Source: Ceratodon purpureus (Eukaryota > Streptophyta > Bryopsida > Pseudoditrichales > Ditrichaceae). Taken from it: 64,000 bases of DNA. The stretch is taken from assembly GCA_014871385.1 (NCBI GenBank), contig CM026429.1, positions 6,297,080 through 6,361,079 of the forward strand. The letters are read 5' to 3'. Both the position numbers and the translations under genes were made by a program. Shown piece after piece: positions 7,629-47,688 of the stretch. The notes under the pieces were generated by a model. That model was not told the origin of the DNA, made no database searches, and was given only the letters and a program-made list of their open reading frames with translations. The stretch's first letter is position 1; every line of letters begins with the position of its first letter.

Positions 7629-7629
7629 A

Positions 7630-8100: not shown

Positions 8101-8107
8101 ACTTATT

Positions 8108-10766: not shown

Positions 10767-10857
<91 letters not shown>

Positions 10858-11567
10858 CAGACATATATAGACAAAGAATCATGTAACCATAAGCTAACCT
10901 CACCTTTGTGTAGCAATTTGCTTGTTTCTATTTCCGAACATAACCTAGAGCCATAAATCCTTTTAGCTGGTGCGCTATTGAGATCAGTCTCTATTTGATG
11001 CTTGAGCCTGCTTACCGTTGTTTATAAATTTGGGGACAATTTGAATGCATTCGCAGAACTCTAGATCAAATTCTGGAGTCGGTGGAAACGAATTATAACA
11101 TGCCACCCTGTTGGATCGCGATGTGGGATGAAGTGTGACTGTCCTTGATTGACGGTTGACGTCTACCGTGTGCGGGCACATTGTCAGCTCACTGGATTTC
11201 AATTGTTCTTAAGTAGGTCCCAACAGCTTGTGTTCAGTTCGGCCGAACAGCTTGTTGATTCCCAAGCAAGTTGCTTCCTTCTGGAGGAGTTTCAATGTGG
11301 GTTTCAATCTTATTTACTCGCCTGATCGTTGCCAGAAGTTGATCTGTTCATATTACTATTGAATAAGGACATTTCACGTACAAATAGCGGAGCCGCCTGA
11401 CTACAATGTCGTTAATTCCTTGGCGTACGGACTAGTTTTTAAGTGTCCGGATCTTTTGTCGATACATAAGGAGGTTGATAGCTGAGCTGGTGAGCTGCAC
11501 AATATCTGTTTCTACATGATCAAATGGTGATCTTACGTAACCTCTCAAATGTGCAGGAGAAATCTCC
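8509..11567. other. AT-rich spacer and upstream region of the HNL gene
   Basis: Bases 8.5-9.24 kb are strongly AT-rich with nothing recognisable. From 9.24 kb base composition rises to that of the genic DNA. The sequence probably holds the promoter and 5' UTR, with possible UTR introns (splice-like AG just before the start codon at 11.55 kb). No protein-coding exon was recognised. Confidence 0.5.
10771..10855. repeat. (AT)n microsatellite, about 42 units
   Basis: An uninterrupted alternating AT tract of about 85 bases flanked by similar AAGCAGACA sequences on both sides. It lies about 0.7 kb upstream of the HNL start codon. The open frames through it encode only Tyr-Ile repeats and are not genes. 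Confidence 0.97.
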
Positions 11568-20251: not shown

Positions 20252-21643
20252 CTAGAAATCTGGTCCGCAATTGTTGACACAGGACCGGTGATCCATGTGG
20301 TCATCATTATCAATTGGGCAGGTTGAAGAACATTGTCCATCTGTACAGACTTCTCTGCACCATGTAACGTCACCATTGCAGTTACAGTTGCCCTCCACTC
20401 TTCCGCAACTCGTCTCGCATGATCCACAGCTATAGACATCACTTGATAAATCGACGCACCAGCCACGTCTTGCCATGCATAGAGTAAATCCCGCGTTTCA
20501 ATTAACACCACATTCCCCTCTGGAGCATTCCGCCGAGCCATTTTCAGGCAAATAGCAGGCGCTGTTGCAGGTACCACAATTACTCGCGTCATTGTCAAGA
20601 TCAACGCACTTCCCGTCGCAAAGCTTCAAACCGTCTTGGCAGCTGACGCTGCATGTGCCACTCAAGCAAGCCGCGTTGCCATTTGCGGGTGCCGAGCAGG
20701 CGTTGTTGCAGGTACCACAATTACTCGCGTCATTGTCAAGATCAACGCACTTCCCGTCGCAAAGCTTCAAACCGTCTTGGCAGGTGACGCTGCACGTGCC
20801 ACTCAAGCAAGCCGCGTTGCCATTTGCGGGTGCCGAACAGGAGTTGTTGCAGGTACCACAGTTACTCGCGTCGTTATCCACATTCCTGCACTCCCCTCCG
20901 CAAAGCATGAATCCGTCATTGCACGTCACGCTGCACGTGCCACCCGAGCAAGTTGAGTTGCCATTTGCGGGTGCCGAGCAGGCGTTCCCACATGTTCCAC
21001 AGTTGGCAGTGTCCGTCTGTAGATTCAAGCACTCAGTGCCGCACTTGGAGAATGGTGCATCGCATTGAATCCCGCAGCCATCCTTTTTGGAGCATGTCGC
21101 AATGCCGTTGGAGAGAGGGACCGGGCAAACCTTCCCGCACGTCCCGCAGTGGTTTGGGTTGGTGTCGACGTTGGCCTCGCAGCCGTTGCCTTTCTTCGAG
21201 TCGCAGTCGCGCCACCCATGGCGCCACTGGCATTCCAACGTGCACCTGCCGTTCTCACACTTGCCTTGGCCGTGCGCTGCGTTCGGGCACTTCACGCCGC
21301 ACTTGCCACAATTCTGGGGGTCGCAACTCACTCGTGTCTTGCACGAGCGCCCCTTGTGGCATGTTGCAAACCCCGGTCGACAGTGCTCATGTGCATCTGT
21401 TACACACATCCAGTACATATACATTCAGCAAACTAGTGACCGCAAATATATTCGAGGGAGCCCACACAACATCACAAATCGACCATGATCTATCATATTC
21501 ATGAGCACTAGACGTAGGAAGATTTAAAGCATAAACAGATTCGGAGGCGCTTGGCACTTACCAGTCTCATGAGAGAATGCGGAGAAGGTGACGGCAACGA
21601 CGACCCAAATGGCTCCCAGCAGCTGCATGCGACGAACACCCAT
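20252..21643 (-). CDS. Secreted Stig1-like cysteine-rich repeat protein with a premature TGA
   Basis: Two exons: 21643-21562 (signal peptide MGVRRMQLLGAIWVVVAVTF) and 21396 leftward, with a GT-AG phase-1 intron. After the signal peptide the protein is a chain of cysteine modules with the pattern C-x-D-x3-D-x2-NCGTC-x2-x-CSAPANGN, resembling Stig1 (stigma-specific protein) domains. Four module boundaries are spaced exactly 141 bp (47 residues) apart, and the two most C-terminal full modules are almost identical in DNA. The frame stops at TGA 20498-20500 (326 residues). The same frame then continues for 81 codons of equally cysteine-rich sequence to TAG at 20252. The TGA occupies the place of a conserved Cys (TGY). 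The product is therefore either truncated or the base is wrong. Role inferred only as extracellular; Stig1 proteins are secreted apoplastic factors. Confidence 0.75.
20571..21000 (-). repeat. 141-bp coding tandem repeats of the Stig1-like gene
   Basis: The anchor GTACCACA (or GTTCCACA) recurs at 20571, 20712, 20853 and 20994, exactly 141 bases apart. The first two intervals are nearly identical and the third and fourth are progressively diverged, which points to recent expansion at the 3' coding end. Confidence 0.93.
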
Positions 21644-22190
21644 AGTGACACACGAGCACCTGCAGTTGAAACCGGCTCCGACCACTCAAGCCTAACCAGT
21701 AGGTCGAGAGAAAGCCCGGGAGCTTATAATTGCAGAGACACACTGCTCGAACTAATGTATTGATTACAGAAATGTGAGCACCTTAGAGCTCGTATTTATA
21801 ATGGGCACCGGGGCGCAAGTCTAAGGCGGTCGTTGTACTCTTTGAACTCCGATATTTCGAGAGCAGGGTAAGGCGCCAAAACCTGAAGCCTTTGACAATG
21901 CTAAGTCCTGGACAGTGGTTTATAGTCGCTTATGGTGTACATTGAGTATCAACTAGATTAGCAATAACGTGGAGAAGGTCCACAGTGTGGCACAAGTGCA
22001 GATGTGCTGATTCCTGAACATGTGTGTACTAGGTTACACAGTATCACTGTTGGAAACGTTGCCATGAGAGATGACGTAGTTTGGAGCAGTGAGTGAGATG
22101 TCAGTGAGCATTTCGAGATTCATTTGGTGTTTGGAACTGTTGAAGACCATCAGGTAGTTCCAACCAGCTTGTGGAAGAACTTGCAAGCGT
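21397..22190. repeat. Left arm of a large inverted duplication (Stig1-like promoter, exon 1 and intron 1)
   Basis: This arm contains the upstream region, first exon and intron of the Stig1-like gene. It matches, in inverted orientation, 23248-24289. Examples of matching segments are the exon encoding RMQLLGAIWVVV, the GTCCTGGACAGTGG-type promoter segment at about 21.9 kb, and the segment around 22.05-22.18 kb. Outer ends are approximate. Confidence 0.88.
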
Positions 22191-22459
22191 ATTCCCTTTG
22201 ATCACGAATCCCGGTAAAATTTGGATGATCGTGTCGAACATGGACCCTGGAGATCTCAAAATTCTCTCTTGAAACGTTGAATGTGTTTTTATAGCTTTTG
22301 GGACTTCGAGTCGGTTTGATGGGGTTGTATTCAAGTGAAAGAACTATTCATTAGAAATCGTCCTCAAATTGAAATTACCTCATTTAGCCACGGGTGCACC
22401 ATCATCTATGTGAGCAACTCTGGCCGGTGATGCTGATCGTCGTTTTTGTTTTTGTAGGT

Positions 22460-23235
22460 GCCTGTGAAACACACATAAACATTGTGGCACTTCAGGTTGC
22501 ATTTGAGGAAGACAATTAGGACGTGCATCTGATCATGGAGCTATGTGAGAGTGGTGAGCTTTCGGAAAACATAGCTAAAAGACAATATTGTTACTCAGAG
22601 CCAGAAGCGCACCATCATGGGCGTTGTACAGACATGTCACAGACACGGGGTCATGCATTGTGGCCTGGAATTTTCTGATTGCCAACAAGGTTGAACTTTC
22701 GACCGTGCTAGAGGCACGGGGCATTAGCACGGGGCAATGGTAGCATTAGCCGGGGCTACTCTATGTGGAGTTAGCCCCCATTTTAGCCTCCCTTTACAAA
22801 GGGTTCAGGAAATCTCAGATTTTCTTGTACACTTGTTTTAGCCCCCAAAATTGCACACCTTGGCCGGGTTAATCTTTCCTAGCTAGAAGAAAAAGCACGT
22901 TTAGCCCGGGCTAAAGTGCCAAGGATTAGCCCCCTTTCCAGTTTAGCCCCGGGGCTAACAGCTCCAAAACTTCCAGCCATCAACGTTGAAAATTGAAAAC
23001 TTCCACCGGCCGGCCATCAACGTTGAAAATTGAAATTTGTGTTTGTTCAAGCCTGGTCAGTAACTTACTCAGATAATGGGGAGTTCTAACATCACGGCGT
23101 CGAAGATGTTGGAGATAAAGTATGGGGTGGAGGTGGATGTGTGGAGCGCGCCGGCTTGATCCTTTTTGGGCCTCGACAGAACAGGGGCTTGAGCAGCAGA
23201 TTCTTTATGATAGGTCAGACCTTGAGATGATAGCT
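22460..23235 (+). pseudogene. Calcium-dependent protein kinase (CDPK) fragment, decayed
   Basis: Pieces of a CDPK catalytic domain in order on the plus strand. The first reads INIVALQVAFEEDN, then an in-frame TAG, then DVHLIMELCESGEL. Near 22.62 kb follows CHRHGVMH, with the HRD region degraded. A GC-rich insertion interrupts it near 22.70-23.08 kb. At 23.09 kb it resumes with KYGVEVDVWSA (the APE-to-DVWS region) and then PFWASTEQGLEQQIL. Frameshifts, the stop and the missing segment make it non-functional. It sits between the arms of the Stig1 inverted duplication, so it may mark the sequence moved during that rearrangement. Confidence 0.75.
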
Positions 23236-23247
23236 GAGGCCGACACA

Positions 23248-24289
23248 TGCTTGCAAGTTCTTCCCCCAGCTGGTTGGAACTACCTAGTGGTGTTCAACAG
23301 TTCCATATACCAAATAAATCCCGAAATGCTCACTGACATCTCACTCACTGCTCCAAACTACGTCATCTCTCATGGCAACGTTTCCAACAGTGATACTGTG
23401 TAACCTAGTACACACATGTTCAGGAATAAGCACCTGTGCACTTGTGCTACACTGTGGACCTTCTGCTCGTTATTGCTAAACTATATGATACATGTACACC
23501 ATAAGCGACTACCAACCCACTGTCCAGGACTTAGCATTGTCAAAGGCTTCAGGTTTTGGCGCCTCGCCCTGCTCTGATCGGAGTAAGGAAGTTCAAAGCG
23601 TGCACCTGAGAACATGATCAGGCCCACCAGTTTCGATGAGCTCTAAGGTGATCATATTTCTATTTTCAATCTATGAGTGCAAGCAGTGTGTCACTGCAAA
23701 CTTTGTAAACAGCGGGCTCCCTCTCGACCTACTGGTGAGGTCTGAGTGGTCAGAGCCAGTTTCAACTGCAGGTGCTCGAGTGTGTCACCATGAGTGCTCG
23801 CTACATGCAGCTGCTGGGAGCCATTTGGGTCGTCGTTGTCGTCACCTTCTGCGCATTCTCTCATGAGATTGGTAAGAGCCAAGTGCCTCAGAATCTTTTT
23901 ATGCTATACATCTTCCTACCTCTACTGCTCAATGTGAATATGGTAGATCACCTGTGGTCTATTTGTAAAATTGTGTGGGCACCCTGGAATGTGGACCTTG
24001 CGTAATATTGTATATGTCTCACCCTCCCTGGAAAAACCAAACTGGCCTGAAAATAGCAATGTTGGACCCTATACTTTCTGATGGGCGCATTCAGACATTT
24101 TTCTCAGGTGACCCACCACAAACCCATGCATTTGAATGTAACTGTGAAAAGATGACTAGTAAAGTGCAAGGAAAGGTTTCAACTGATATTGATTTCTGAG
24201 GGGTTTGCCAACACACCCGGCCAAATATATTTTAAACCAGTTTGGTTTTTCCAGGGAGGGTGAGATGTACTGGATGTGTGTAACAGATG
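23248..24289 (+). pseudogene. Right arm: orphan promoter, exon 1 and intron 1 of the Stig1-like gene
   Basis: An inverted partial copy of the Stig1-like locus. Exon 1 begins at 23790 and encodes MSARYMQLLGAIWVVVVVTF, close to the parent signal peptide, and ends in a GTAAGAG donor. The intron is interrupted by a MITE at 24018-24264. The copy then resumes with the parental intron 3' end and acceptor (GTGTGTAACAG) and stops four bases into exon 2, at 24289. With no cysteine repeats downstream it cannot encode the mature protein, though its promoter and first exon look intact. Confidence 0.85.
24018..24264. mobile_element. 247-bp MITE with perfect 28-bp terminal inverted repeats and ATGT target duplication
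   Basis: Bases 24018-24045 and 24237-24264 are perfect inverted copies beginning CTCACCCTCCCTGG. The element is flanked by ATGT on both sides. The uninterrupted parental intron at about 21.40-21.43 kb reads TATATGTACTGG, so the empty site is present in the same window and confirms both ends and a 4-bp duplication. No coding capacity. Confidence 0.93.
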
Positions 24290-25610: not shown

Positions 25611-26238
25611 TACAAACTAAGCTTATCTCGTCCTTTCTTCCTCAGGAAGCTTGTTTGCTGTGTTTGTGTGCCTGCTGGATGCATACCCATATCCACCACT
25701 GCACCTGGTCTCCTAAGTATTACCCAGATACTAAACGGATAACACACCAGTCATCAGGAAAGTCTGCCATGTAAAATTTTATATAAATTTCATATTAAAT
25801 TGACTAAAAAATAATCAGTGTGAACTTGACATTGATTTACTGTTTTTTGGTGGTTCCTGTCACATAGAATTTACTTAATTTTTTTTAATATGAAAACTGT
25901 ATTAACTCTCGGACATACATTTTATATAAAATTTATAACATCCATTATATACTATGAAATTCATAACTAAAAAATTGGATATTAATTCTTTGTTGAAAAA
26001 AAAACATATGAATTTCATAGTTATACAATACTCGATAATAATTCTATAGAAAGTTAACAAAGAATATTTTATATGAAACTTATATGCTCTTATTATTAAT
26101 ATGATATAAACTTTATATCAAATCTGATCAACATAATGAATCATCTAAATATTGAAAAAATTGTAAATGTATAACATGGTAACCAACAATCCACTGTAGA
26201 GAGAAGCTGGGCACATATCATGGCCATTCCTAGTGAAT

Positions 26239-29200
26239 TTAAAACTTGAATTTATTAACAAAATATTCATCATTTGTTACAAAGTCAGGAATCACTTGTA
26301 CAGCCTGTATAATGGAAGAAGTTTTAACTACCCTAAAAGACGTTCTTCCTGCTTCTTCCCATTTCAATTTGAGACAATCACATACATTGTTCAAACCTAC
26401 AAAGGAGTACATTTTTATCAGAGCAAACTCTTTGTGTGTTCGTACCATGTTATTGTCCCAAACAGGGCATTTGAATAAAACTCTTAGTTGCCCAAACGAT
26501 GTAGTATCTTCATCTCTTGTGTTCTCTGATCTTAAAGAAACACTACTGAACCAACTCTTACCATGATGTTCTGGAGTAGCTCTTGCATACATAGGTGCCT
26601 CTCCATATTCAGAGTCCCAAAATGGTGCTAGAGCAAGAGTTGTATGAATAAGAAGGCTCTATAAAAACACCATATTCATAGTTAGTAATTTACATATTTA
26701 TGAATTTTTTTATGAATTTTTTTTAAACAAAATTCATAAAAAAATTGTGATGTACATTTACTTACCTCATGTGCTGGCATATTATTGGAATTTGAATATG
26801 CATCCAAACTCTCGATCAGGTATGAACCAATCTCAGGCTGAATTCGCAGAATTTGTTGTAATTTTGTTAAATCATTAGTTCCCAGGGGACCATTTGCGAC
26901 ATCATTTTGGCGATTCAGTTCTTGTCTTTTAATAGTCACGGTGTAACCACTCATCACATGTTCTCCTCTTTCCATTGCCTATTTCATACATTACATAATA
27001 ACATTGAATAATGAACATATACACACGAAAAAAATCACTATGGTTGAAATCAAAGTTATAAATGCATAACAATAGTAAACACATATTCATTGAACACCTC
27101 AGTTATTCTTAAATCATGAAAAAATAAATTAACTATAATTTTTATAATCATTTAAAAAACTCATCCTTATTTGAGATGTTTTTATTAAAGATGTTGGCAT
27201 TACATACCTCATTCAAAGGGGAATTGATTTTCTTGGGCTTCTCAAATCAGTCCATTCCCTGAACATTTGTCCGAAGTGCTTGTAATCTTCTGTTGTACTT
27301 TATAATAAACTTTTGGAAGTCCCTTTTGTTACTTGCCCTGTATGCCCTTTTCATCAGGGCTATATTCAGGTTTTCATACAAGTTCGAACTGAATTCAAAA
27401 GGAGAACCCAATCGAATAATAGCAGTACGGTAATGAGACATGTCATGAATCTTGATAAGTTGAAATTCAAAACGTTGCCAATCTGATAATACCCTCACAA
27501 AAGTATTCACTGCACTGAAAATCAAAACAACATATAATTACTTTTTAGGTCGAGACTTATTAAAATTTTGTGTTCAATAAAAAAATTCTAAGGAAAAAGG
27601 TAACATTCACTTTCATCATATAGTTAATCAAAACATGAAATATACAAGTGAATATCAAAACAACTAAGTAAGACACTTACTCTCTCATTAAATCATTCAG
27701 CCTTGTAAGTGACTCATTATTATACTCCTTCTTTCGGCATGCCATTTGATACCATTTCAAAAATTTAACAATGGCACTTATAACATCTTCTTCATATAGA
27801 CCAAACAAGCAGAACACAATAACCTGTCGAAAACATTAATTGATGCGATGTTAATATTCATAATAATTAAATCATCTATAACTATTTTATCACCAGCAAA
27901 TAATATCGCCAAATAATAAATATAATGTCCATTTTACACAACATTTAAAAATTAACATATAATATTTTAATTGAAATTGATACACTCCATTCAGAATATA
28001 CACACAATGCAAGGTAATAAATATACAATGACAACTTCATGATAATATAAGAAGGGACTAACCTGCATAACTGAACGATGTACAAAAGCAGCATAATTTG
28101 CTTGCGATAAAAAATACCCACTTGAAAGATTACCGGGCACCCGAAATTTGTAAAACCTTGCCTCCTCTTTGATTACGGATAGCCTTCTGTCCAATTCAGC
28201 TAAAGTTCTGCCTCCATTGGGATGACTTTGGGCTATCATTCGTACGATGTCAATCAATGTCTTGAACACCCCAAGATCAGCTTGATGTAACATATCAACA
28301 TTCAAAGCAAGATACGGATTTCCAAAATCTGTATCTCCTCCGGCAAATCCCCATAGATCACACTACAGATAATCCACAAACATTATGTGATTATTCAAAT
28401 GTAGTTTTGATGTCTTAATTTACTACATATTTGAAGAATGAAAATAATAAATCAAATGTAAAAACCATATTGCGTCATTTACTTTTGTTGAAAAAAATAT
28501 TCGGGTTTAAAGAAAAAACATACATTCACTGGATGTAGAGAATATTCCTTTGAGATTCGTTCAGCCTCCGAGGCACTAGGTGCACTCAAAATGTCGTTCA
28601 CAACTTGCTTCATTGTTGCTTCGGTCCTGAGAATATGATTAACATGAACGTCTCTTAATTCACGAGCAAGACACATGCAAATGCTACATGGATGTTGACA
28701 TCTTCCAGAATCATAGGTACATGTGACCTGCACATAACATTTACACGTTCCTCTTCAAGTAAAAACAATCACTATTAAAGACATAACAATTAAATAAAAA
28801 CCATATGAAAAAGCAGAAGCAAATTATTTAAAACCTTATATTTTTGAATACTTTTAGAAAACTTTTTTCTATGAAGAAACGAAATGAAACAATTTTACCT
28901 TACATCCTTCGGGATGATCAGCCATATAAGCATACAGTCTTGGATATATTACTCTTTGAATGCCAAACGGATCTTCACAGTGAATTCCCCTGAATATAAA
29001 TTACACTTCTTATGAATTAAGAATAAGTTGAAAAATAAATCTAACCTTAACATTGGTGATACAATATAACTTTTATAAATTTGCCATTTGGTTTTTTTAA
29101 CAACTTCAATGTTCAATTTCAAAAACCGAATTCAGAAAACGTTGTGAAGATTATCTTTGGATACTTACTCAAAACTTGCGTCTTTTAATGGTTTCAAAAC

Positions 29201-30583
29201 CACTTCAAGACATTCTTGAAAAACACGAAATCGTTCAACGGATGATGAAGCATTTGTTTGAGGAATGGGTAATGTTGCAATCATACTATGACCTTCATCA
29301 CAATAACGATTCTCGCATGCAATATTACCAATGCTGAGGACTAATGGATGTCCAATAGTTCTTTTGTTTTTGGAGAGTGCTGTTTGGTCACTATATAAGA
29401 TCAAAGGTACGACTATACCTCCAACACAATCTTTTTCAACATGCCCCTGCATAATCAATAAATAGAAACATTTTTAAAAATCATACATCAAAAACTAGAT
29501 ATCTTTAAAATAAGGGTAATATAAATAAATAAAATAAATTATGAAAGAAGGACTAAAAATAAAAATTTAAAAATAAAATAAAATAATGATTCAGAGATCT
29601 TTTTAAAATTAAAAATTGAGTTATATTATATAATAATAGAAACGTAAAGAGAAAAGAATTAAGAAACCATTGGTGTAAAAAACCACATAGAAGTGGTTTT
29701 AAAAATACACATAGGACTATAGAATCATAATTCAAACATGCAACTGTACTTCCAGAAGAGGCCTAGTTCAAAGTGCTTACTTGCATCTGACGCCACCAAG
29801 TACCAGTTGCTGGTGTGGAATAAGGTTCTCCACGATTTGCAGGTCCCAACATGAATCCCTCATTCATTTCTTTACAAGAAAATAATAATTTCACTGCTTC
29901 TAGCGCCACCAAGTACCAGTTGCTGGTGTGGAATAAGGTTCTCCACGATTTGCAGGTCCCAACATGAATCCCTCATTCATTTCTTTACAAGAAAATAATA
30001 ATTTCACTGCTTCTAGTGAATCCTTGTACCTCAAAACGTGACCCCAAACAGAACACTCCTTCCATCCATCTGATTCGCTGAATAAAGATTGTTCATATTT
30101 TTCCATACTAGCAGCCGATCTATAAGATAAGCCTTGTAGATTAAACTGAGAGTTGAACAATAGTTCCTTAAACAAAACATCTACTACGTTATTTGACAGA
30201 CTCGAACCATTGTTACTTGTCCTAGCCCAATGAAGGAATGCTTTGTCAGAGTCAAAAGGAATTGAGGGTCTTGGTGGCTCATCTGATGTAACTCGTGGAA
30301 TTGGTTCCATCAGATGTGGATCATTCACATTTCCATGTTCTTGATGTTCAGTGGATCCACATCCTGGTGGAGGCAATACATTATGAACAGCAGGAGGCAA
30401 TACATTATGAACAGCAGGAGGCAATACATTTGGAACAGTAAGAGGCACTTGCGATGGACCATCCAAGTGATGACTTCGTCGATGTGATGCATAACCAGCG
30501 CCAGTCCTATAAGGACCACCTCCACAGATGTTGCAATGTCTACTATACCCCGTCATAATGTTTGATTGATATCTTGCAAACAT
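26239..30583 (-). pseudogene. Plavaka-family transposase, about nine exons, disrupted
   Basis: Minus-strand exons with plausible GT-AG junctions reconstruct a long transposase. The N terminus has a C2H2 zinc finger (CNICGG...HRRSH, about 30.54 kb) and a short PPAVHNVL repeat. Then come the catalytic region with VVPLILYSDQTALS and LSIGNI (about 29.4 kb), IYPRLYAYMADHPEGC (about 28.9 kb), a Cys-rich exon (28.73-28.49 kb), DMLHQADLGVFKTL (about 28.27 kb), KIHDMSHYRTAIIRLGS (about 27.43 kb), and a C-terminal exon ending at 26239. These are hallmarks of Plavaka transposases, a CACTA-related group known chiefly from fungi. Two lesions are visible. A 113-bp tandem duplication puts a stop (TAG 29900-29902) after TGTWW, and an in-frame TGA at 27247-27249 precedes FEKPKK. 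The copy is therefore probably inactive. Confidence 0.85.
29791..30016. repeat. 113-bp direct tandem duplication inside transposase exon 1
   Basis: Bases 29791-29903 and 29904-30016 are two copies, essentially identical. The duplicated unit includes the 3' end of the first coding exon. Because 113 is not a multiple of three, the second copy is out of frame and the junction creates a TAG. Confidence 0.95.
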
Positions 30584-31654
30584 ACATTATTCCCATTAGT
30601 TCTCAAATGTACAGTTGAAGATAATAATACAATGGAATAAAAAATTTAAAATTGAAAGCAAGAAACATCAGTGCATGCTAGTTAAACCGTAAGTCTTTAA
30701 GAGTGTATCATCTGTCAAAATATGTTGGAAAGCCTCAAACTATACATATCCCGGCTACATCATCATATTTGGGTTATCTGTGTTGCCGCACTCTATACAA
30801 AGCGGAATCGGAATGCAAGCCATGGTGTCTTACCCCAGTACTCTAGAAAAAAAACCACAAGTTTATACCTCCCTGGAAACCACAAATGCAAAATCATCAC
30901 AAACCATGGCCAAAGACATGATGCTTGAAACCAGAAAATGTAACAAATAAGACCATTGTCACAGAAAATACCATGCAATAAGGTAAATGAGAGAATGAGT
31001 TGGAGATGAGACTGACTTTGCAAGCTGAAGGAAAACTATGCGAGAGTGGTTCAGAGAGGTCCCCTGTGTTTGTGGTTTTCCAAGATATATCTGTGTCATG
31101 TCAGAGCAGCATGATTGCACTCCTCGTTCACCTAGCATTCCTGTACAGGAATTTGCAAAAATTTGTTAGAAAATTCGAGATGTGCCCTTCCTTTCCCTTG
31201 ATATTATCTACAACTAGAGTCTAATACTGTCTAATTTGTTTAAACTTCAGAATTTTAGACCTCTTATAACCACTGCCACATTTCTTGTTAAAATTTCAGT
31301 CTATTTAAATTAAGCATGAAACAAGAAACAAACTTACAAGTATAGAAGATAATTTCAATGCTATCAATTTGCAGAAAGGTATGTAAGACTAGGAATATGT
31401 ATGTAACAAACCTTCCAACCAGTTGGCCACCAACTCTCCAACAACTTCAATAATAAAGACAATTGAGAGATAAAAATTATATAAACTACAAAGATCAAAA
31501 TATATTATGTGGCGCTCACCACCCAACCATAGAGAAGTGATCACAAAAGAAGTGTCTCACCTTCTCGCCCCCAATCCTTTGTATATTAGTTTCAATTTAA
31601 GATGAACTAGAGTCTATCTCAGACTATGTCCCATAGTCTACCCTATTCATAGAT

Positions 31655-31885
31655 CATTCTATTTCCTTTACTCCTATATCTGGAGTAAAGATAATCCACA
31701 AATCCTTCTAGGCTCTTCTATCTCTCCAACTCAAAGACTCTTCTTGATCTATCTATCTTCTTTACTCCTATATTTGGAGTAAAGATATCCATAGATCATT
31801 CTAGATCCTTCTCTCCCTTTAACTCATAGTCTCCTCTAGATCTTTTATCTTTTTACTCCTATATCTGGAGTAAAGATAATTAATT
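31655..31885. repeat. Three ~93-bp repeats each with a TTTACTCC...GGAGTAAA hairpin
   Basis: The palindrome TTTACTCCTATATCTGGAGTAAA, or a one-base variant, occurs at about 31668, 31760 and 31853. Intervening sequence rich in TCTAGATC and TCTTC is conserved between copies. No coding role is visible. Confidence 0.85.
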
Positions 31886-32582
31886 ACCATCAGTAGTCTA
31901 ATTCTAGTGTACCTCATCTTGAGTTGTCGAACCCTTGTACACACGTTTCACTGTGGTAAGAATCTACTACGTATATTAATTTCAGATATGGAAAGTATCC
32001 CATGGATAGATTTGGCTATTTCTAATCTCTTGTTGATTACTGGTTCTCCATTTACATGCAGTAAAGATTTAGGTAAGTAGAAGTGTGGAATTTGCACATT
32101 TCTTCTACAGCAAATAATATTTTATTTTTTATTATTTATTTCACTTTTAAACCTTTTTTATTCAACCCTTTTCAAATTTTGAAGACATACCAATTAATAA
32201 TTATAAATTAAATTTGGAATAATGATTTGAGTGTTGTATGCGGATAAAAATTATAGGTACTGAATTTTTAATGATATATTTGCTTTTATTAATCAACAAT
32301 TTCTAACACCAATAAAAATACATATCTTTAGGACCTCAGATTTCATCTGATGTCTATTTTTCTTTTAGAATCCAAGATTCTCATTTTTGTAAATAAATAG
32401 GATTGTGATGAATTGAAGCAAAACACTTAGGTAATATTGATTTCTGATAGTTTTTCCTGTACGTGACTTTATGACTTCATTTTTTTGGGGAAAATTTTAA
32501 CTCAAGATATTACAAATTTTTGTAAGTGTAACATTAACATGGAAATACATGGTCATATACTTGTAATGTCGATGAGCATTGT

Positions 32583-32660
32583 GTCGTGGAGGACTCAGGT
32601 GATGTCATTGAGAAGCTGAAGAAAGGTTTCATCACTTTCAAACAAGGAGATTACAAGTGA
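32583..32660 (+). pseudogene. Possible beta-carbonic anhydrase exon fragment
   Basis: An open stretch encodes VVEDSGDVIEKLKKGFITFK, which resembles the segment just before the zinc-binding core of plant beta-carbonic anhydrases (the ERLKTGF.HFK region). It is followed by a GTGAG donor-like sequence. No zinc-ligand exon is visible nearby. The match is short, so this is tentative. Confidence 0.4.
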
Positions 32661-33660
32661 GATTTTATAAACCCCTATCCATGTTTATGTTTAAGTTCAG
32701 TATGAAAAAAACAGAAAAGTTAAACACATGCTTGTTGTGATAATTGGCACAAACTCGAGCTTCTATTCTTGCCACTTATGCAAGACTCTGGAGCATACAT
32801 TCCACGTTGATTGGTTGCTCAAAAGAGAATTCTGTCTCCAAACGTAAGCTTGACCACTTCCTTACATAAAATATCCATGTGCCACGACATATGGGATAAA
32901 CTGATTGCTGCATTGAACCAAAGCCCTGCCTGTCTGCCAGGAAAGGAATCTGTATTGGGCAAATCTCTTTATTCTACACATTAAAAATCAGTGGCTCAAC
33001 TTACAATGAACTGTAATTATAAATACGGTGCAGTGGAACAACCAATTTTGTCAACTAGACTAATATGCAATTTGCATAAAAAATTTGGAAGATTTTTCCG
33101 TCATGATTCAACTACAAATAAGCTAATGAAAGTACAGTACTAGAGAGTGGAATTTTGTGTTAAAAACGAGAAGCAATAAAATGGAAATACCACCGTCATC
33201 TATCAGGTTCTATACATTCTTATTCTTATATATTCTACCCTGCTGCAGCTACAGTTACCTTCAATGCACACTGCAGACCTTTCACTTTTGAGTGCTTTGC
33301 ATGTATTCCTGGTACACTGGTAAAAAAAAACGCACAAGGACTTGCACTTTCACGAGCGATCGCTTCAGCTTTTCTGCACCGAAAAGAGAAGTCTGGTACC
33401 GGTACCAGGACCGTCAATTGCTCAAATCAGTCAGAGAAACACAAAACTTGAAACATTAAAACATAGACAAAGCTGTGTTAACTTGAAACTAGCAGACATA
33501 GCTGTGGAAATAAAAACTTGAATTTGGAAACCCGTCCTTTCAAAAAATATTTCAAAATATGGTCTGTATATATAAAATTATATATACATTCAAAAATAAA
33601 ATGAGAAACGTTGGAAGCATATGTAGTAAGAAGCAAATGAATACTTCTATTTCATTGTCC

Positions 33661-35181
33661 CTAATTAGTATAAAATCCTTCCTCTTCCTCGTTCTCAGCA
33701 TCCCCTGGAGAATCTTGTCCAACCGTCTCATCAATGTCATCAGTCTCATGGTCCAAAACCAATGCGAACCTGGTCAATTCGTTTGCCTGGGCCGATCGAA
33801 TCAACTCCTTTTTCAGAACCTTAATGCCAGCCTTGTGTTCTGACACATGGCCTGACATATCCATGTTCATGAACATGGATATGAAAAAGCCTTCCATCTG
33901 TTCAGACATTGAAGCAATGGTAAATGGAAGTTCTTCAATTAAATTGGACAGGACAATTTTCATAATTTCTACATTCAATCTCATCATAGAAAAACTTACC
34001 ACTTAAACAAGCCATGCTACTGTCTCAGGCTTTAGTACCAACACACCATCTTTTTGATAGTTTACACCACCTTTGGCCCGTGCAATAGAGTCATGGACAA
34101 CGGAAGCACCAAAGGGATCACTACCAGATGTACGCCATTGGTTATGATCTCCCATACGTGCTAATTTATCCGATCGCAACGCCTGTATAACCTCCGGGTT
34201 GTCAGTATGGGGCATATCTGGAATTCCGAGTAAGGACTGCAATTCTCTACGCACCGTTGATGTATATCGACCACGAGCTGAAGTCATGTACTGCGCCTTT
34301 GATTGAAGCCCTGACCTGGTATTTCCATCAGGACCTACGGCCCATGCATTCTCAAATGCATGCAACGTCTGTACATCGTCATCCGTGACCCTCAATTCTG
34401 CAAGAATTTTTGTCTTCAAGACATCTGCCCTAGGCTGGACACAACACTCCACGTTAGTACCCCAAAGAAAGTGCTTCGATATGGGTAACATACGTTTACG
34501 CACCTGTATCTACTCCGTGCCCTAGATCGGTTGAGGAGGTGGTTGTGGAACTCGCTGATGGGCTTGAGTATGAACCGTAGCAGTCAATTGTGCAATAAGT
34601 GCATCCTTCTCTGCTACCATCCTTTTGAGATTTTCAATCTCAATCCGGTCGTCAGCGTGACGAGGAATCGGTCGCTCTGGCAACGGCCCGGTGCTGCCTA
34701 AACCAGCTGCAGGTACACCCGCTGAACGTGGAGGTGTAGAATCACCAGACGCTGCTACAAATGGTCTTGGTGGCGCCCTAGAAGGTCCAGCAGCAGTTGG
34801 AGAAGTCCTTGTTCCTCTTGTACCGGACAGTGGAACTTGTGGTCGAATGGAACGTGGTGGTAGAGCCGTCCTTGCAATTCAACCACGCTGAGTTCGCCCA
34901 AATGCTCTGTACTGTCCTGCACTGGATGGGGAGACCTGAGGTCGTACATACGGTCCAGACTGACTAGATGGAGTTGGCGGCTGTGTAGCAGTAGAAGGCG
35001 GTCCACTAGGTACGATCGACGGGGTAAAAGGAGTGCTCTATGGGGTTTGGACAGGGAGTGCTGCAGGGCTAGGGATGGGAGTGATTGGTGGGATGCCCTG
35101 AGTGATCGGTACTTGCGTTTCTGGAGTACTGCCCATGAATCGCAACCCTACGGGTACATACGAGCTATCTTCAGAATTTGC
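33661..35181 (-). pseudogene. Second transposon-associated reading frame, five stops, function unknown
   Basis: From ATG at 35181 one minus-strand frame can be read for 507 codons without any shift, interrupted only by TAG 35038-35040, TGA 34879-34881, TAG 34522-34524, TAG 34510-34512 and TAA 34003-34005. The N-terminal third is rich in Pro, Thr and Ser. A short coiled-coil-like segment (IEIENLKRMVAEKDALIAQL) follows, then a basic region and an acidic C terminus. Same strand and interval as the Plavaka transposase suggest an accessory protein comparable in position to TnpA of CACTA elements, but I recognise no domain. It could also be a captured host gene. Confidence 0.5.
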
Positions 35182-35881
35182 CATAATCCAAACCTAGAGG
35201 GGAGGGGAGTGTGATGGGGAGTGGAAGTGGGCGGAGGTTGAGGAGCGCGGAGGTGGAGGAGCGCTGCGTGAGTGCGGGCGGAAAGTGGAGGAGCCGTGTG
35301 TGCTCACTTTGCATGTATGTGCGGCCTAGGTTTTGGGGGAACTCTGAGTTCACTGGCAATGAAGCGCTGACCATGGCGTCGTCTCCAACGTCGTCATCAT
35401 CTTCTTCGTTTGAGTTCGTTTGGGAGGAGTCTTTGCGGTGTTGTTTTGGTGTGATCTCGACCAGGTGTTGAAGTTTTCTCGTGGATTTTTGGTTTGGATG
35501 TTTGTGATGGATGGGTGTCATGGTGTTGGAGTACCGCTTTATGGTGTTGAAGTACCGCTTTATTGAGGGATATGTCTTTGTTTTTTGTAGTTTGGATTGC
35601 GTTTTTTTTGTTCACGGATTTCATTATGGTGAGGTTGAGTTTTTAGGCTATAGGTTCAGTTGAGAGGTTGTTGGGAATTCGGGCTCGCAGCTCAGAATGT
35701 TGGGTTCGGTGTATTTTTTTGGGTTCGTTTGCTGCGTGTTTCAATATATTTCCAATTCTGCTTGTGAAGGGTTGGCAATTGAGAAAACTGCAACAGTGGT
35801 CTGTGATCTCCCATGCGTGATCATGGTGGATCAATTCATGGGAGTTCCTGTGAGTGGCTGGAAGGTGAGAAGCCGAGAGTC

Positions 35882-36216
35882 ATGACGGACTCCGAGCTCA
35901 CCCGGGAGGAGGTGAGAACACGGGTTTGCTAAATTGCTGGGGTGGGGTTTGAGGTCTAGGGTTAAGGGTTCGTGGGATGTGGATCGGAGGGGAATGATTG
36001 GGGTCGTGGTCAGGGAATGGGGGGTTTTGGAGCGATCTGGGGTAGGGTTGGGGGATTGATGGGGTTGGAGCTTGGGGGTTGGCTTTGCAGGTGTTGAAGC
36101 GGGATATTCCATGGGAGACTTACATGACTGCCAAGCTCATCAATAGTACTGGCTTGCAATTGCTCCGCCGCCACGACCACCGGCCTGCCCACGTGCAATC
36201 TGCATTGCTGGAAGAG
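35882..36216 (+). pseudogene. V-type H+-ATPase subunit H, exons 1-2 only
   Basis: Two exons, 35882-35911 (MTDSELTREE) and 36091-36216, joined by a clean GT-AG phase-0 intron, encode [17 protein letters not shown] and GLQLLRR, the conserved N terminus of V-ATPase subunit H (the regulatory V1 subunit). The next exon expected after LLEE does not follow; instead a DUF1749 gene begins at 36.77 kb. More subunit-H exons reappear at 39.18 kb. Orientation is opposite to the transposase. Confidence 0.85.
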
Positions 36217-36768
36217 GTACTCGGGATATTCTTTTCGTGAATTATTAGTGTCGGGGAGATGTGCAGTAGCTGCATTGGAAAGTGTGTAGTATGTTAGCTC
36301 AGGGTTAGTTGATGGTTGTGTCTTGGTCATTGTCGTAGTTGGATTGGATTGGATCCGGGATGTGATTCCCCTGTTCAGCTGACCCTAGTTTAGCGGTTAA
36401 CTCATGTGGTGAATCGGAGAAGAAATTGTCTAGATGGAGTGCATCTGAGCAGCTTGACTTTGTTATTTTTTTATTTTATTTTACCCTGTCTGGAGAGAAG
36501 GTGTTTTTTGATTGAACAGGAGAGTTGTGAAACCTCGATCAGTTGTGAGATCGATTCAGAATTTGGCTAGTACCGTAACTCTGTCTCCAAAAACAACACC
36601 TCAAAAATAACCCGCTCGGATGATTTCATTGCATAGAGGCAACGTCAACAAGTTGCCAGAAGTCTCTTTCGAAGACCGCATCACAAAACGCAAGTCCACA
36701 TTCGGGAAGACACAACATTGTCTCTAATCCACATTCCTGGTGACATTGTCACAGCAACTTCTGCCGCA

Positions 36769-39140
36769 ATGGAGGACAGCTCTGGGCCCAACCGCGAGAC
36801 GGCTCAACACGGTCAGGTAAGCCGAAATGAGCACCGCAATGGACATCGCAATGGGCATTGTAATGTTGTAATTGGGAAGAATTTTTGGGTGCTGGAGGTG
36901 AATCCTCAGGCATGTGACATAGGCCAGGCAGTTGCTGCAGCTCTGGAGATTCTCTGGTGACTTCGGTGGGGCCCCGGAGAGTCAGGCCGGAGAGGTTTAG
37001 ACAAAGTCGTTGTTGGGCATGTGGGTGTCCATGTGAGTCCGGATTGAGTCGGGCTTGGGTAGAAGAATTTGGTGTTTGTTTTTATTAGTTAAGTAGAATC
37101 GGTGATTTGGTGGAAGATTGATCCGTGGTTGAGAGCTTGTGATGGTGATGGTGATGGTGGTGGTGTTCAGGTGAGTGAAGGAGGAGCAGCTATGGCTAGT
37201 TCACGCAAATTGCCGAAGCTGCAAGGCAGTATGTTCAAATACGGCAGCAAATCGATTCAGGTTTTATAGCGATGTGCATCTTCTTGCAAATTGTGATCCC
37301 GTTGTTTAGAGTGCGAAGGAACTGATTGTTTGATTATGAGGATCGTCATTTCACGCTTCCTAAACCCTAATTTTTGTCTGAAAAGGATGTGATGTCATTA
37401 GTTTACTTTCTTTGAATTGTGGGACCTTTGAGGATCATCGGTGTGGATTGATTCTGCCAAGCTCGATGTGTAGATTGAGAGTAGTGTTCTCATGCGCTTG
37501 TTGGCTGAATTGGCTCTTGGTTGCGTAGATGAAGGTTGCATTTCAATCAGGAAACTACAAGCAGCATGTGATCATAATAGGAGGCCTTACTGATGGATTG
37601 TTCGCGACAGAGTGCGTTTCTTGTTAGCCAGTTGGGGTTGATGCAATTCAGGCAATCTCATATTTTGTTCTTGTTAGGAGAAGTTGGGGGAGCTTTGCAT
37701 GCTTATGATGTTGTCATTGTTATGCAATCTCCGTCTTCTCAGATTTTTTTTGGTTGAGTACTTGAGCTCCAACTTTGTCCCATGCTATCCCATATTCTGA
37801 AATGTTTTCATATTCACTCCAGTTATGTCGAGCCGCTGGCGAAAGCGTTGGAAGCCGAGAAGTAGTCATTGGTGCAGCCACACTTTACGTCTTCTTACAC
37901 GGGGTTTGGTACCTCAAGCCTCAAGAGGTATCTCTCTCTGACCATATCATTTATTGCTTACCATATGCGATGGAAGGCTCTTTCCTTGGTTTAATGTACA
38001 TGATAGCTGAGGGCATCATGGGAACTGTTGCATTTTGTAATTTAGTTGCTGGAAGAGAAAGAAGATTGAATGATAGGTCTTGGACGAGTTCTTATGGTGT
38101 TGCCTGTTCAGGATGCACTAGAGATTGAACAGCTCCTCAACTACTTGATCGATCAAGAGAATTCTGAAGGGTTCATTCTAATTGGGCATAGCACAGGTTG
38201 TCAGGTACTTTCTTCTGGATTTATGCTTGTCTCTATGGTTATTAGTCTGGTTTTACGCAGAATGGAAATAACTGAGGTTTTCCTAAAATTCTGCATAGCT
38301 GTGTATATGATGAGCGATTTGAGCTGTCTCAGGTTTGGCTTGTTCTAATTCAAACGCGTTGTTCTCCAAGATATCGTCAATTATTTGCGTCTTGGCGGGC
38401 ACTGCACACGTGCAGTGAGGGGTGCAATTCTCCAGGTTTTTTCCCTTCTCAATCCAACCACAAGTCATTGGGTTAACAGTAGTTGTTAAAGGCTTTAGGT
38501 TTATGATGGAACTGACAGTACTTCTACAGAGACATAGCCTGTGTCGTATCGTGCTTTTTCTTTCTTCGTTTTCCATGCCATTTTAACTATTGGATATCTT
38601 TAAGTGTAAGGTATGTCAACCTCGAAGTGGACCAATGTGCCCTGAAATTCACGAAATTCTTGTGGTTATATCACCAGGCACCAGTTAGCGATCGAGAGTT
38701 TCTTGTCACGTTGCCTGAGACACAACCCAAGCTTGAACTGGCGGAGAAAATGATCAAGGAGGGAAAAGGCGAAGAATTGATGCCTCGAGATACCAGTCTA
38801 GAGGCACCAATAACAGCCTACAGGTGCTGTTAACGGCCAACATCCATTCATTTACTGTGGTAAATTATGTGGGAAACCAGTTGTGCTCTGTGCTCAGGAT
38901 CTCAGTCTCCATGCTACGAGGTTCATGTCCTGAAGTCTCTGTTGTCATTTTTCTAGCTCCATTTATTTGTTAACTGGGTATGCTTACGTTTGAAAAACCT
39001 AAACGAAACAATGCTATGCCTACGACTTGGTTGCAGGTTCCATTCACTATCTACAGTTTTGGGTGATGATGATTTGTTCAGTACAGATCTCTCTGACGCC
39101 CAGCTGAAAGCTCGGCTTGGGCATATGTCACGAGTGCTCA
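36769..39140 (+). pseudogene. UPF0613/DUF1749 alpha/beta-hydrolase, broken and 3'-truncated
   Basis: Seven exons can be followed: 36769-36816, 37171-37260, 37529-37611, 37823-37927, 38112-38204, 38370-38435 and 38678-38823, then a final piece from 39037. They encode QHVIIIGGLTDGLFAT, SLVQPHFTSSYTGFGTSSL, GFILIGHSTGCQ (nucleophile Ser in G-H-S-T-G) and VRGAILQAPVSDREF, typical of the DUF1749 esterase-like family. Lesions: TAG (37863-37865) replaces a conserved Trp before SLVQP; the donor at 37928 leaves the next exon one base out of frame; and the acceptor before 38370 reads AA instead of AG. The frame ends soon after RLGHMS, so the C terminus is missing. The gene is dead or heavily mis-sequenced. 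Confidence 0.85.
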
Positions 39141-39174
39141 TTTAGATATAACTGACTCATATAGCTCGGCTTGG

Positions 39175-39542
39175 GCTATATTCATCAAGGCCAATGGCAC
39201 CAAACTTCTGGCTCCCTTAATTACCCCTGCCTCCAATCAGCAATATATTTAGGTCAGTATAGTCCACTTTGTATTTTTCCTTTTCTTGCTTCATTCATGG
39301 TTGATCTTGTTGAAGAGTTCATGTCAAATAGCAAGTTTAGTTACAGCAGATTTCAGTTTCTTTTCGCTTAAGGGTGCAATTTGTATAAACCTATGTGATG
39401 CCTGTTCGTGTTGCAGCTGCTATATGAGGCAACGCTGTGCATATGGCTTCTATCGTTTCACGATGGTGCCGTGGAAGCGTTTTCAACAGCGAGAGTGGTA
39501 CCACGTCTTGTGGACATTGAGAAGAGCTCTACTAAAGAAAAG
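39175..39542 (+). pseudogene. V-type H+-ATPase subunit H, internal exons with a stop
   Basis: Exon about 39175-39252 encodes IFIKANGTKLLAPLITPA and ends TAG|GTCAGT, where subunit H should have a Gln (CAG). Exon 39417-39542 encodes LLYEATLCIWLLSFHDGAVE and SSTKEK, a clear match to the middle of subunit H. No later exon was recognised. With the 5' exons at 35.9-36.2 kb this makes an interrupted subunit-H copy that has the DUF1749 sequence between its parts. Confidence 0.82.
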
Positions 39543-40292
39543 GTAATCAGTGGATGCAATCTATAGAATTTTTTAATTTTAGGTGAAGGTCTCCAGATTA
39601 TATTATTCTGCTTTAGATTGTTGAACTGGAACTTAATATTGTTGTGTAGCTTTATTGTTGTGTAGCTTTACAATTCGTCTGTGCAGGCGCATATAGCCGC
39701 AGCAAGGGCACAAAGGACCCTGATTTGAAGAATCCTGCTCATTTAGAAAATTAGATATAACTTCTCCTTATTAGCATGTACTTTTTACCTTTTAAATGTA
39801 TGCAATTGTTACATTTGATCTATTATACATCTGCGTCATTGTTACATTGCATGAATATGGAATGTACACTTATATGTGTTTTATGGGCAGAAAATCTACC
39901 ATATGTTTACACTTCACTGATTCTAAATCTAACATATTCCCTCATGTCTCCAACTCTAAATCTACCCTGTAGCTACATGAGCATTCAGTCCAAAATCTAC
40001 AAATTTTAAATATCTCACCTCCAAAATTTAACAGAGAAGTGGATTCATGTGCAATTTTAAGATTTATTTCATGCAAATTTTATATGCAATTTATATAAAT
40101 TTTATATAAATTTTACATTCAAAATTGTACTTATAATTAATGTTATTTTTATAGTACACAAGGTACTAATTAAATTGACAAAAGATCTACAATTCTTTTA
40201 TATAAAAGGTTAGCTTGTTATATTCAACAGTACTTTTTTACAGAATTTATATAAAATTTAGTTCATCAGACTTTCCTGATGCTTTCCTGATG

Positions 40293-45768: not shown

Positions 45769-45841
45769 GGTTCCTTAGTGTAGTGGTTATCACGTTCGCT
45801 TTACACGCGAAAGGTCGCGGGTTCGAAACCCGCAGGGACTA
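45769..45841 (+). tRNA. trnV-UAC: tRNA-Val (anticodon TAC)
   Basis: 73 bases. The acceptor stem GGTTCCT pairs with AGGGACT; D-loop GTGTAGTGGTTATCAC, anticodon loop TTTACAC with TAC, and B box GGTTCGAAACC. CCA is not encoded, as expected for a nuclear gene. Confidence 0.95.
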
Positions 45842-45857
45842 TGGGGTTAACCCCCTT

Positions 45858-45943
45858 GGGGCGGTGGCGCAGTTGGCTAGCGCGTAGGTCTCATAGCTAA
45901 ACGAGAAATCCTGAGGTCGAGAGTTCGAGCCTCTCTCGCCCCA
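45858..45943 (+). tRNA. trnM-CAU: Elongator tRNA-Met (anticodon CAT) with intron
   Basis: 86 bases. Acceptor GGGGCGG pairs with TCGCCCC, A box TGGCGCAGTTGG, anticodon CAT at 45892-45894 followed by a short intron, B box AGTTCGAGCCT. An intron at this point is normal for plant elongator tRNA-Met. Only 16 bases separate it from tRNA-Val. Confidence 0.95.
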
Positions 45944-46694
45944 ATTTTGTTGTTTTTGTTGTCACATCTTCCTTGCATAATGGCAATTTTGACAAGAAAA
46001 TCGCATATTCGGTTTGATAGGTGAATGTTATCGTGTTTGCATGGGTGACGGTTTCGCAGAAAATCGTGGATTTCATGCGGTGAGTGTTTATGATGGTGAT
46101 TAATATCTTCCAGCTTGGATACAGGGAATGAGAAGTTTTGTGCAATCATAGTTGGAGCTTATGCTTGAACGTGTGCGAGGTATGGGACAGGCTGATGTTG
46201 GAACTAATTTCACGATCGTGAGCTAGTATGATGAGTTAGAAGGTCATGATTAGTTTATATACACCCACCTTATGAAGAATCAAATGTATGGAAAGCATGC
46301 ACCCATCATCCAGTCTGCCTTTCCGGGGACTCTTTCGCCCATCTTAACTAGCTTTAAGTTACAAGTTGTTCGAAATGATATAACCTAGAGTTCATTGGTA
46401 AACGAACACTGAACAGTTTGTAGCTTACAATTTTGCAGTACACAGGATCTTAGATGGTAGCCATGTCGACGGAATATTAGTGGTTCAAGACGGACGACGC
46501 CTTTTCCTTTAAATCTGAGTAAAATTACACCACAGAAACTACTCATTGAGTACAATCCTTTGACTTTTGCAGTGATCCACGGCACCAGTTTCGGAGCAAG
46601 CAAACCGGTGCAAAGTTTAAACAATGCGCTGTTTATTAAATTGCTCTGAATGTTTAACAAGACTGGCACGTTTCCTTGGGTTTTGTATTCTTAG
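45944..46694. other. Intergenic, nothing recognised
   Basis: Short open frames only, on both strands. A T-rich run right after tRNA-Met (ATTTTGTTGTTTTTGTTG) would serve as an RNA polymerase III terminator. Confidence 0.5.
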
Positions 46695-46986
46695 ACACCG
46701 GAGCATGAGGGAGAGTGCGTTGACGAACAAATTGTCACCAGGGGACAAGACCATTTCCTCCCGTCTCGGACAATTTAGCCTTCTCTGGATTAGCCAGCTG
46801 CAGCGTTACCACTTCGACGTTGATGTGATTGAGTGCGAGTGGGTTGCGGCCGCTGATTTGGAGATTTTGAAGCAGAAGCTGCAGGCCGATTGGTCACACT
46901 TGGCGAAGGCTATCCGTATGCACAATGAAACATCAAGCAAAGTGACAAACGACATTGGTGCTGCGCGTCGCATTCTCAGTAAACAG
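46695..46986 (+). pseudogene. Serine-glyoxylate aminotransferase exon fragment
   Basis: A single exon bounded by TTCTTAG and CAG|GTATTT encodes SALTNKLSPGDKTISSRLGQ, FSLLWISQLQR, FDVDVIECEW and HNETSSKVTNDIGAARRIL, a clear match to the peroxisomal photorespiratory serine-glyoxylate aminotransferase. Near the 5' end two extra bases (TGAGGGAGAG where TGGGAGAG is expected) break the GAWESAL segment, and a residue is lost before HNETS. The following exon with the PLP-lysine is absent. A displaced, dead fragment. Confidence 0.8.
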
Positions 46987-47616
46987 GTATTTTCTTATAC
47001 CATCTTCCGCAGAGTCTTGTCTTCACCCTGAAATTATGGAATCATGGATATCATCAAATTGGAACTTCATGAATGATGAACTTGCGTTGGGTTGGCCAGA
47101 CAACGATGAACCTAATTCATCCTGTCCGATCTGTCAAGCTTCGAAACTGATTTACGTGCTTACAGTCCGCTCAAAATCAGGAACTGGGACTAAGAAACTT
47201 TTTAGAATATGATTCAAGTATCAATTCCAGTCGTCCTGCGTTACGCTTAAACAGTGTCGACATGAGGCAGAGCGCTGCGTATGTCTGGTTCAGTATTTCC
47301 AAAATCCTGCTGTGGTGTACTACATTCTTTGAGATTGTTCTTAACTTGCGCTATGTCTCTTTCATATTATCATCCAGGTAAATCACGTCATCATGTCGAT
47401 AACAAGCATTTATGCAATCGAGAGCAAGCGAGACAGAGATCTGAAGCATTGCCATGGAGTTGGTGTTGAGCCCCAATCTTGGTGTTGAGGTGGTAACGCC
47501 ATTCTGCTGTTAACAAGGGAGTAAGGTTTTATCCCTTTCTTTAGCAAATGGAAGGGTAAAAAGATCGTAGCCGTGACTTATAAAAGGTTTATAAAAGATG
47601 TTATTGATGCCGTTGA
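46987..47616. other. Intergenic, nothing recognised
   Basis: No convincing gene; short open frames only. Confidence 0.5.
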
Positions 47617-47688
47617 TGCCTTCACGGTGGATCGAACACCGGACCTTCAGTTTACAAGACTGACGCTCTACCACTGAGCTATAAAGGC
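47617..47688 (-). tRNA. trnT-UGU: tRNA-Thr (anticodon TGT)
   Basis: 72 bases. Acceptor 5' GCCTTTA against 3' TGAAGGC plus discriminator A, TAGCTCAGTGGTAGAGC D-arm and A box, anticodon stem TCAGT/ACTGA with loop CTTGTAA (TGT, 47654-47656), B box TGTTCGATCC. Confidence 0.93.

Follow-up and report, generated by a model that had tools for sequence, protein, structure and literature searches.

A host-gene mosaic inside a Plavaka element

The stretch of Ceratodon purpureus DNA analysed here (the window; 64,000 nucleotides, positions 6297080-6361079 of contig C9) carries a Plavaka element of ~14.5 kb, inside which pieces of two host genes, V-ATPase subunit H and a DUF1749 gene, are joined into a mosaic. 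All copies and parent genes described below come from one assembly (362,488,568 bases in 151 contigs) and one individual. Parent coordinates refer to the stretches C2a (C2:12094001-12114000) for subunit H and C1a (C1:15364001-15374000) for DUF1749. The element is delimited by terminal inverted repeats (TIRs) and consists of the following features:

25752-40281 (or 40292), no strand assigned: Plavaka element; alignments of related copies end at 25751/25752 and around 40281, with TIRs at both ends
25752-25766, plus: left TIR, 15 bp, CATCAGGAAAGTCTG
29165-29473, minus: open stretch with the Plavaka transposase domain PF18759 (E = 2.4e-13, 50.5 bits against a cut-off of 26.3)
33661-35183, minus: second coding-like region, unnamed, open frames
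35868-36568, plus: 5' end of V-ATPase subunit H, 94% identical to C2a 7234-7947; a leader of ~14 bp, exon 1 (35882-35911, with ATG), an intron, exon 2 (36091-36216) and part of intron 2
36567-39140, plus: DUF1749 segment with upstream sequence, 2.57 kb, 93% identical to C1a 4443-7022
37192-37260, 37535-37611, 37823-37927, 38112-38204, 38370-38435, 38678-38823 and 39037-39140, plus: captured DUF1749 exons
39141-39172, plus: filler of 32 nt at the joint between DUF1749 and subunit H; pieces of it recur nearby
39173-39654, plus: later subunit-H piece, 97% identical to C2a 9956-10437 (PF03224, E = 7.3e-12 in 39141-39650, above cut-off); partial exon 39173-39252, an intron, exon 39417-39542 and the start of an intron
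39655-40281, plus: right terminal region common to the family, at least 40 distinct places (window included) match it in full or in part with an identity of 89% or higher
40267-40281, minus: right TIR, the same 15 bp (CATCAGGAAAGTCTG); its tip is repeated in tandem at 40282-40292 (11 bp)

All pieces of the mosaic (35868-39654) lie on the plus strand with their introns kept, and the Plavaka domain lies on the minus strand. A sequence-only reading of this DNA had proposed such an arrangement, with pieces of both genes in one orientation and opposite to the transposase, and it is borne out by matches to PF03224 and PF08538, by DNA identities of 93-97% and by PF18759 on the minus strand. The interval 35882-39542 runs from the subunit-H start codon to the end of the later subunit-H exon. 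PF03224 in 35868-36567 scores below its curated cut-off (E = 1.5e-4, 21.8 bits; cut-off 25.7), and 36567-39140 matches PF08538 in two frames (E = 1.8e-12 and 6.5e-15). The claim that DUF1749 interrupts the subunit-H copy also stands, with subunit H on both sides and 36567-39140 between them. The captured DUF1749 part comprises exons 1-7 of the parent's nine, with exon 7 short by 5 nt and the 3' end truncated; in exon 3 a TGG has become TAG and 1 nt is lost, and the acceptor before exon 5 is gone (AA). In the partial exon 39173-39252 of the later subunit-H piece one CAG codon reads TAG. Because of nonsense, frameshift, lost splice site and truncation, the mosaic cannot encode either parent protein and is a relic as regards them; at most, the window cargo could yield a spliced chimeric RNA starting from the captured subunit-H first exon.

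The match to PF18759 covers positions 105-232 of the 325 of the profile, and a weak second piece in another frame stays below cut-off (E = 0.001). The frames at 33661-35183 gave no Pfam match above cut-off; a match to Packaging_FI at 33661-34002 (E = 0.0045, below cut-off) was set aside as chance. Likewise no Pfam match was obtained in the three plus-strand frames of 35184-35868, or in the single frame tried of 39655-39780. Within the right terminal region, a short frame at 39690-39765, noted by eye, follows a TGCAG acceptor-like site and ends in TAG; it is possibly a captured last exon.

Parent genes on other contigs, whose absence had been named as the sign of a native locus, were found in this assembly: a fuller subunit H on C2, with pieces of both the N-terminal and the C-terminal subunit-H families, and a DUF1749 gene on C1 whose 292 codons and stop form an open frame. 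That the genes are single-copy, as the sequence-only reading had it, does not hold for DUF1749: a second locus with the same domain (C4:12609001-12619000) aligns in pieces with C1a over ~7.4 kb including flanks, as would be expected for an old duplicated segment. With the C1 and C4 loci alike beyond the gene itself, the C1 frame open, both subunit-H domains on C2 and the window copy broken, it is virtually inconceivable that the window is the native home of these genes and the other copies derive from it; no evidence for this was found in this assembly.

Other members of the family and what they carry

The same order of subunit H, DUF1749 and subunit H recurs on the minus strand of C6 (87641173-87652314), at 96% identity over 10.4 kb and with the same right tip. 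The mosaic, proposed earlier to lie inside the element, is therefore placed between TIRs in the window and beside the same right tip on C6. A large segmental duplication was rejected because the flanks of the window are not shared with the C6 copy. At C6:87640704-87641171 the right tip of this copy abuts, head to head, a terminus only 71% alike, a hint of a second related family or of a composite end.

Members of the family have moved as units, as their bounding TIRs and 2-bp duplications show. Each of the five other copies for which both ends are available has such a duplication: AT in the further C9 copy, TA in C11a, AT in C6c, AG in L029 and AC in C13. The family size is a lower bound, since it stems from a search with the right terminus in which 40 of 111 candidates were scored. 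The window copy holds the transposase region; C9, C11a, C6c (3-5 kb) and L029 have no match to it.

Several members keep remnants of subunit H, which begin ~14 bp before the ATG and include introns, and the expectation of other copies with different cargo proved correct. In C13 (13731263-13746142), subunit H (C2a 7234-8437) is followed by 2.3 kb of a thioredoxin-domain gene (PF00085, E = 4.8e-12) and then by subunit H from C2a 10016; the thioredoxin parent lies at C12:2857618-2859281 (94% identity; 95.8% over 2.4 kb). In the C3 and C9 copies, subunit H runs to C2a 7455, followed by a PLAA-like gene with WD40 and PFU domains (8.2e-6, just below cut-off, and 7.6e-11, read in C3) and then by subunit H from C2a 10076. 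The PLAA-like parent, C1:19544218-19546828 (98%), is a locus that also has PUL. C11a carries an importin-11-like piece (3.5e-13) ahead of subunit H from C2a 9628, with its parent at C2:26303521-26305073 (98%); another locus, C6:56399006-56400014, matches 1 kb of this cargo at 98%. C6c and C6d share subunit H from C2a 10096 and a piece of a CCCH zinc-finger gene (4.2e-7, read in C6d), and their inserts have pieces in common at 95-98%. In C11b, subunit H from C2a 10166 is accompanied by a single frame that matches both HisKA (5e-6, at cut-off) and CHASE (3.6e-4, below cut-off). The CHASE/HisKA and CCCH pieces, their parents not being in hand, are assigned as cargo solely from their domains and position. 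In the C11b insert, an antisense match to Hormone_recep (E = 0.0012, below cut-off) was dismissed as chance.

Identity to the parent is 93-98% for the subunit-H pieces, 92-95% for DUF1749 fragments, 98.2% for PLAA (C3 copy), 98.4% for importin and 99.5% for an E2 acyltransferase found in a small copy (see below). The breakpoints of cargo in one slot differ independently between members. With up to two mismatches tolerated, the TIR scan found no TIR in the fetched parent stretches C1a and C4a (10 kb each), C2a (20 kb) and L033-L037. Host-gene fragments thus lie between TIRs, and those parents that were found lie elsewhere with no TIR nearby, in agreement with the Pack-type gene capture proposed from the sequence. 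We conclude that this is very probably a Pack-type, gene-capturing family of Plavaka DNA transposons.

Several observations weigh against this conclusion or parts of it. The window element has a 2-bp duplication (GT/GT) when its right end is placed at 40292, on which placement the duplication depends; with 40281 the flanks mismatch. The C6 mosaic copy stops at window position 28964 in the 40 kb fetched, so that only one TIR is seen, and a segment of this copy (window 28964-31255) occurs again at a distance of 16.4 kb. Ten minus-strand frames were set against their counterparts in C13, C3 and C6: all 22 comparisons show more replacement than silent codon changes, with stops in the C3 and C13 versions; an active enzyme or an autonomous copy therefore remains putative. 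The C6b copy (L023, C6:108953001-108963000, 4389-6720) holds a longer subunit-H piece, C2a 9297-10957 at 89%, is 86-89% identical to other members and gave no second cargo by Pfam in three sense frames; it could represent either an old copy or an independent capture of subunit H. Trees of the subunit-H pieces of ~342 bp and 220 bp were too poorly resolved for the order of capture or the status of C6b. For the mechanism discussed next, the evidence consists of sequence scars from one individual.

Joints, and the probable repair and exchange of cargo

Because introns are kept, the cargo must have been acquired at the DNA level, as judged from these copies. At the joints, neighbouring pieces overlap by 2 bp in the window, 3 and 4 bp in C13, 6 bp in C3, and 3, 3 and 4 bp in L030, with a further overlap of 13 bp in L030 between its C4 and thioredoxin pieces; these lengths, stated without a control, are possible microhomology. 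Other joints have gaps (32 nt in the window, 16 nt in C3, 17 nt in C11a and 48 nt in L030). Within the window filler and its edges, 14 nt also occur at 39109 and 12 nt also occur at 39751. Among random 39-mers of the window, none of 1921 had two disjoint matches of that length, and single matches of at least 14 nt occurred in 4 of 1925.

These scars suggest that genes were captured by gap repair with template switching, a route we hold to be reasonably likely. Members hold a genomic stretch of subunit H, introns included, of which slices that vary from member to member have given way to other host genes, in what was probably a serial capture. In each case a break or gap inside the element would have been repaired by copying an ectopic gene, so that one joint shows microhomology and the opposite one either microhomology as well or a short filler templated in part. 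The captured cargo spread between the TIRs, presumably by cut-and-paste, and cargo pieces would be exchanged between members. Gap filling or fork switching has been argued for animal Pack-TIRs (PMC8277862).

For plant Pack-CACTA elements, the available parts of the published accounts favour fusion of neighbouring insertions or end bypass (PMC8903248; PMC13317346), in which outer TIRs would move everything between them. Two cargo sources hint at nearness, both stated without a chance estimate: the E2 acyltransferase parent (C11:10445448-10446861) is ~8 kb from a family member (C11:10433375-10437602), and the match of a 212-bp piece at C1:15347735 is ~20 kb from the DUF1749 parent. Such nearness could reflect capture from near neighbours. 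The second-round cargo in the window, C6, C13, C3 and C9 is flanked by subunit H on both sides and not by element ends; no internal TIR (up to two mismatches) was found in the window, in C13 or in the fetched part of C3; and the templated filler resembles a repair scar. Since the cargo lies inside earlier cargo, fusion is less suited to the later acquisitions, but it could explain the first capture. We regard it overall as unlikely.

The interruption of subunit H by DUF1749 might also be expected if a Helitron or Pack-MULE carrying DUF1749 had inserted into the Plavaka element. Yet subunit H is not split but replaced over C2a 7948-9955 (~2 kb), the joints show the 2-bp overlap and the 32-nt filler, and the cargo is simply a segment of the C1 gene. 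A Helitron, moreover, would have neither TIRs nor a target duplication, whereas TIRs and 2-bp duplications are present here. A nested insertion is hence very improbable.

The family also includes small elements. A piece of the DUF1749 region that ends at window position 37375 is present at no fewer than 22 loci; among the 22 listed, 18 include all of exon 1 and 21 adjoin a listed right terminus. Three small copies were fetched (L029, L030 and L031). L029 is complete (488-4305, 3.8 kb, with the AG duplication) and has a weak match to RNase_PH (E = 3.6e-4). L030 is composed, in order, of the 212-bp piece (99% to C1:15347735), the E2 acyltransferase (1414 bp, 99.5% to C11:10445448-10446861), 48 unassigned nt, a C4 piece (99% to C4:13583635), thioredoxin-gene sequence (254 bp), the DUF1749 fragment and, last, the right terminus. 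The Biotin_lipoyl match in its insert is weak (E = 0.0016) and is borne out by the parent gene; the C11 locus has pieces of Biotin_lipoyl, E3_binding and 2-oxoacid_dh, all of which score below cut-off. Two further loci (on C1 and C9) are 100% (rounded) identical to the L030 insert over 2.7 kb, so that the family must have moved recently.

The DUF1749 fragments of the small copies diverge by 1.7-2.3% from the window and by 3.5-4.0% from C1. Five element copies (the small ones, the window and C6) have 8 substitutions in common against C1; the three small copies have 3 further substitutions and a 6-nt indel fixed, and the two large copies have none of their own. We had taken the shared substitutions as proof of a single DUF1749 capture, a claim dropped because the 8 sites are unpolarised. 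The one in exon 1 is in fact a change in the C1 gene, with C4 agreeing with the elements, and separate DUF1749 captures may therefore have occurred, a further point against parts of the conclusion above. Because pieces of DUF1749 and of the thioredoxin gene, each known from another member as well, are both present in small elements, and independent retaking of the same pair is unlikely, the data favour the passing of cargo pieces between members over repeated capture.

Orientation of the cargo and place among gene-capturing transposons

Counting cargo with reasonable domain evidence, relative to subunit H or to the right end, the later cargo lies in sense (rightward) in 7 of 7 cases: DUF1749, thioredoxin, PLAA, importin-11, E2, CCCH and CHASE/HisKA (two-sided binomial P ~0.016). 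The figure is 5 of 5 for cargo with a parent found (P ~0.06) and 8 of 8 if the weak RNase_PH of L029 is counted. For the C11a and C6b inserts and the L014 part of the C13 insert, the domain search covered sense frames only. The bias could come from the geometry of repair, from selection against antisense RNA or from transcription from the captured subunit-H start. Retention of the cargo for a function, with element or host benefiting from sense chimeric transcripts or from small RNAs, would fit the uniform orientation and the retained subunit-H start codon; the broken frame of the window copy speaks against it, and we think it doubtful. Quite improbable as well, in our view, is the idea that the subunit-H 5' end is a fixed cargo slot, behind whose start codon later genes are taken only in sense. 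The family would then be an exon-shuffling device in which the survival of a capture depends on its spliced chimeric transcripts, or on there being no antisense RNA to silence essential parents.

Outside the element, the window has disease-resistance-like open frames with NB-ARC and leucine-rich repeats at 12426-15501 (plus strand; P-loop GMGGVGKTT, seen by eye), retrotransposon Gag-like frames with CCHC motifs at 3841-6488 (minus strand, by eye), and three tRNA genes at 45769-47688. An imperfect long inverted repeat occupies 21502-23931 (arms up to 243 bp, 89-95% complementary), and ~3 tandem repeats of 141 bp lie at 20517-21033 within a cysteine-rich 308-aa frame on the minus strand.

Judging by titles, papers on Plavaka reportedly concern fungi, the protist Amoebidium (an animal relative) and the green alga Auxenochlorella. 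In the accessible portion of the literature, mostly outside subscription journals, we found neither a gene-capturing Plavaka element, in line with the earlier remark that none had been reported, nor a Plavaka element of a land plant. A close fit is PlavakaB of Agaricomycotina fungi (PMC12730594), with termini CATCA..TGATG and duplications of 2-3 bp. Judged by these features, it agrees with the moss family in transposase domain, CATCA..TGATG termini and 2-bp duplications, and it differs in being fungal with a TET/JBP gene, where the moss has partial, intron-bearing host genes. As far as the parts consulted describe them, Pack-CACTA and Pack-TYPE elements of flowering plants (PMC8903248) are alike in internal host-gene cargo between TIRs, parents elsewhere, spread by transposition and serial acquisition. 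They belong to another superfamily, whereas the large moss copies keep a transposase region and kilobase-sized, intron-bearing cargo, with second cargo replacing part of the first. Animal Pack-TIRs, in the available text of PMC8277862, share breakpoint microhomology with short insertions and later multicopy spread; unlike them, the moss family has one slot refilled independently in several members. The giant Plavaka repeats of Amoebidium (PMC11244446, partly available) likewise have a Plavaka transposase beside extra genes; moss comes up in that paper in an unrelated context.

C6 measures 110,524,308 bases, and the sex-chromosome assemblies of Ceratodon purpureus are given as 110.5 and 112.2 Mb, in a genome of 'around 300 Mb', in the part of PMC9273592 at hand. 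Judged by this size, C6 is an apparent sex chromosome, on which one copy of the mosaic lies. Taken together, the findings extend gene capture to Plavaka, otherwise described, in the sources available, from fungi and one protist, and now in a moss, where the transposon family acts as a gene shuffler. Because parents are 93-99.5% identical, refills are independent, breakpoints are readable and recent copies are near-identical, a copy count in this one small genome can test both the debated mechanism of capture and the sense bias.

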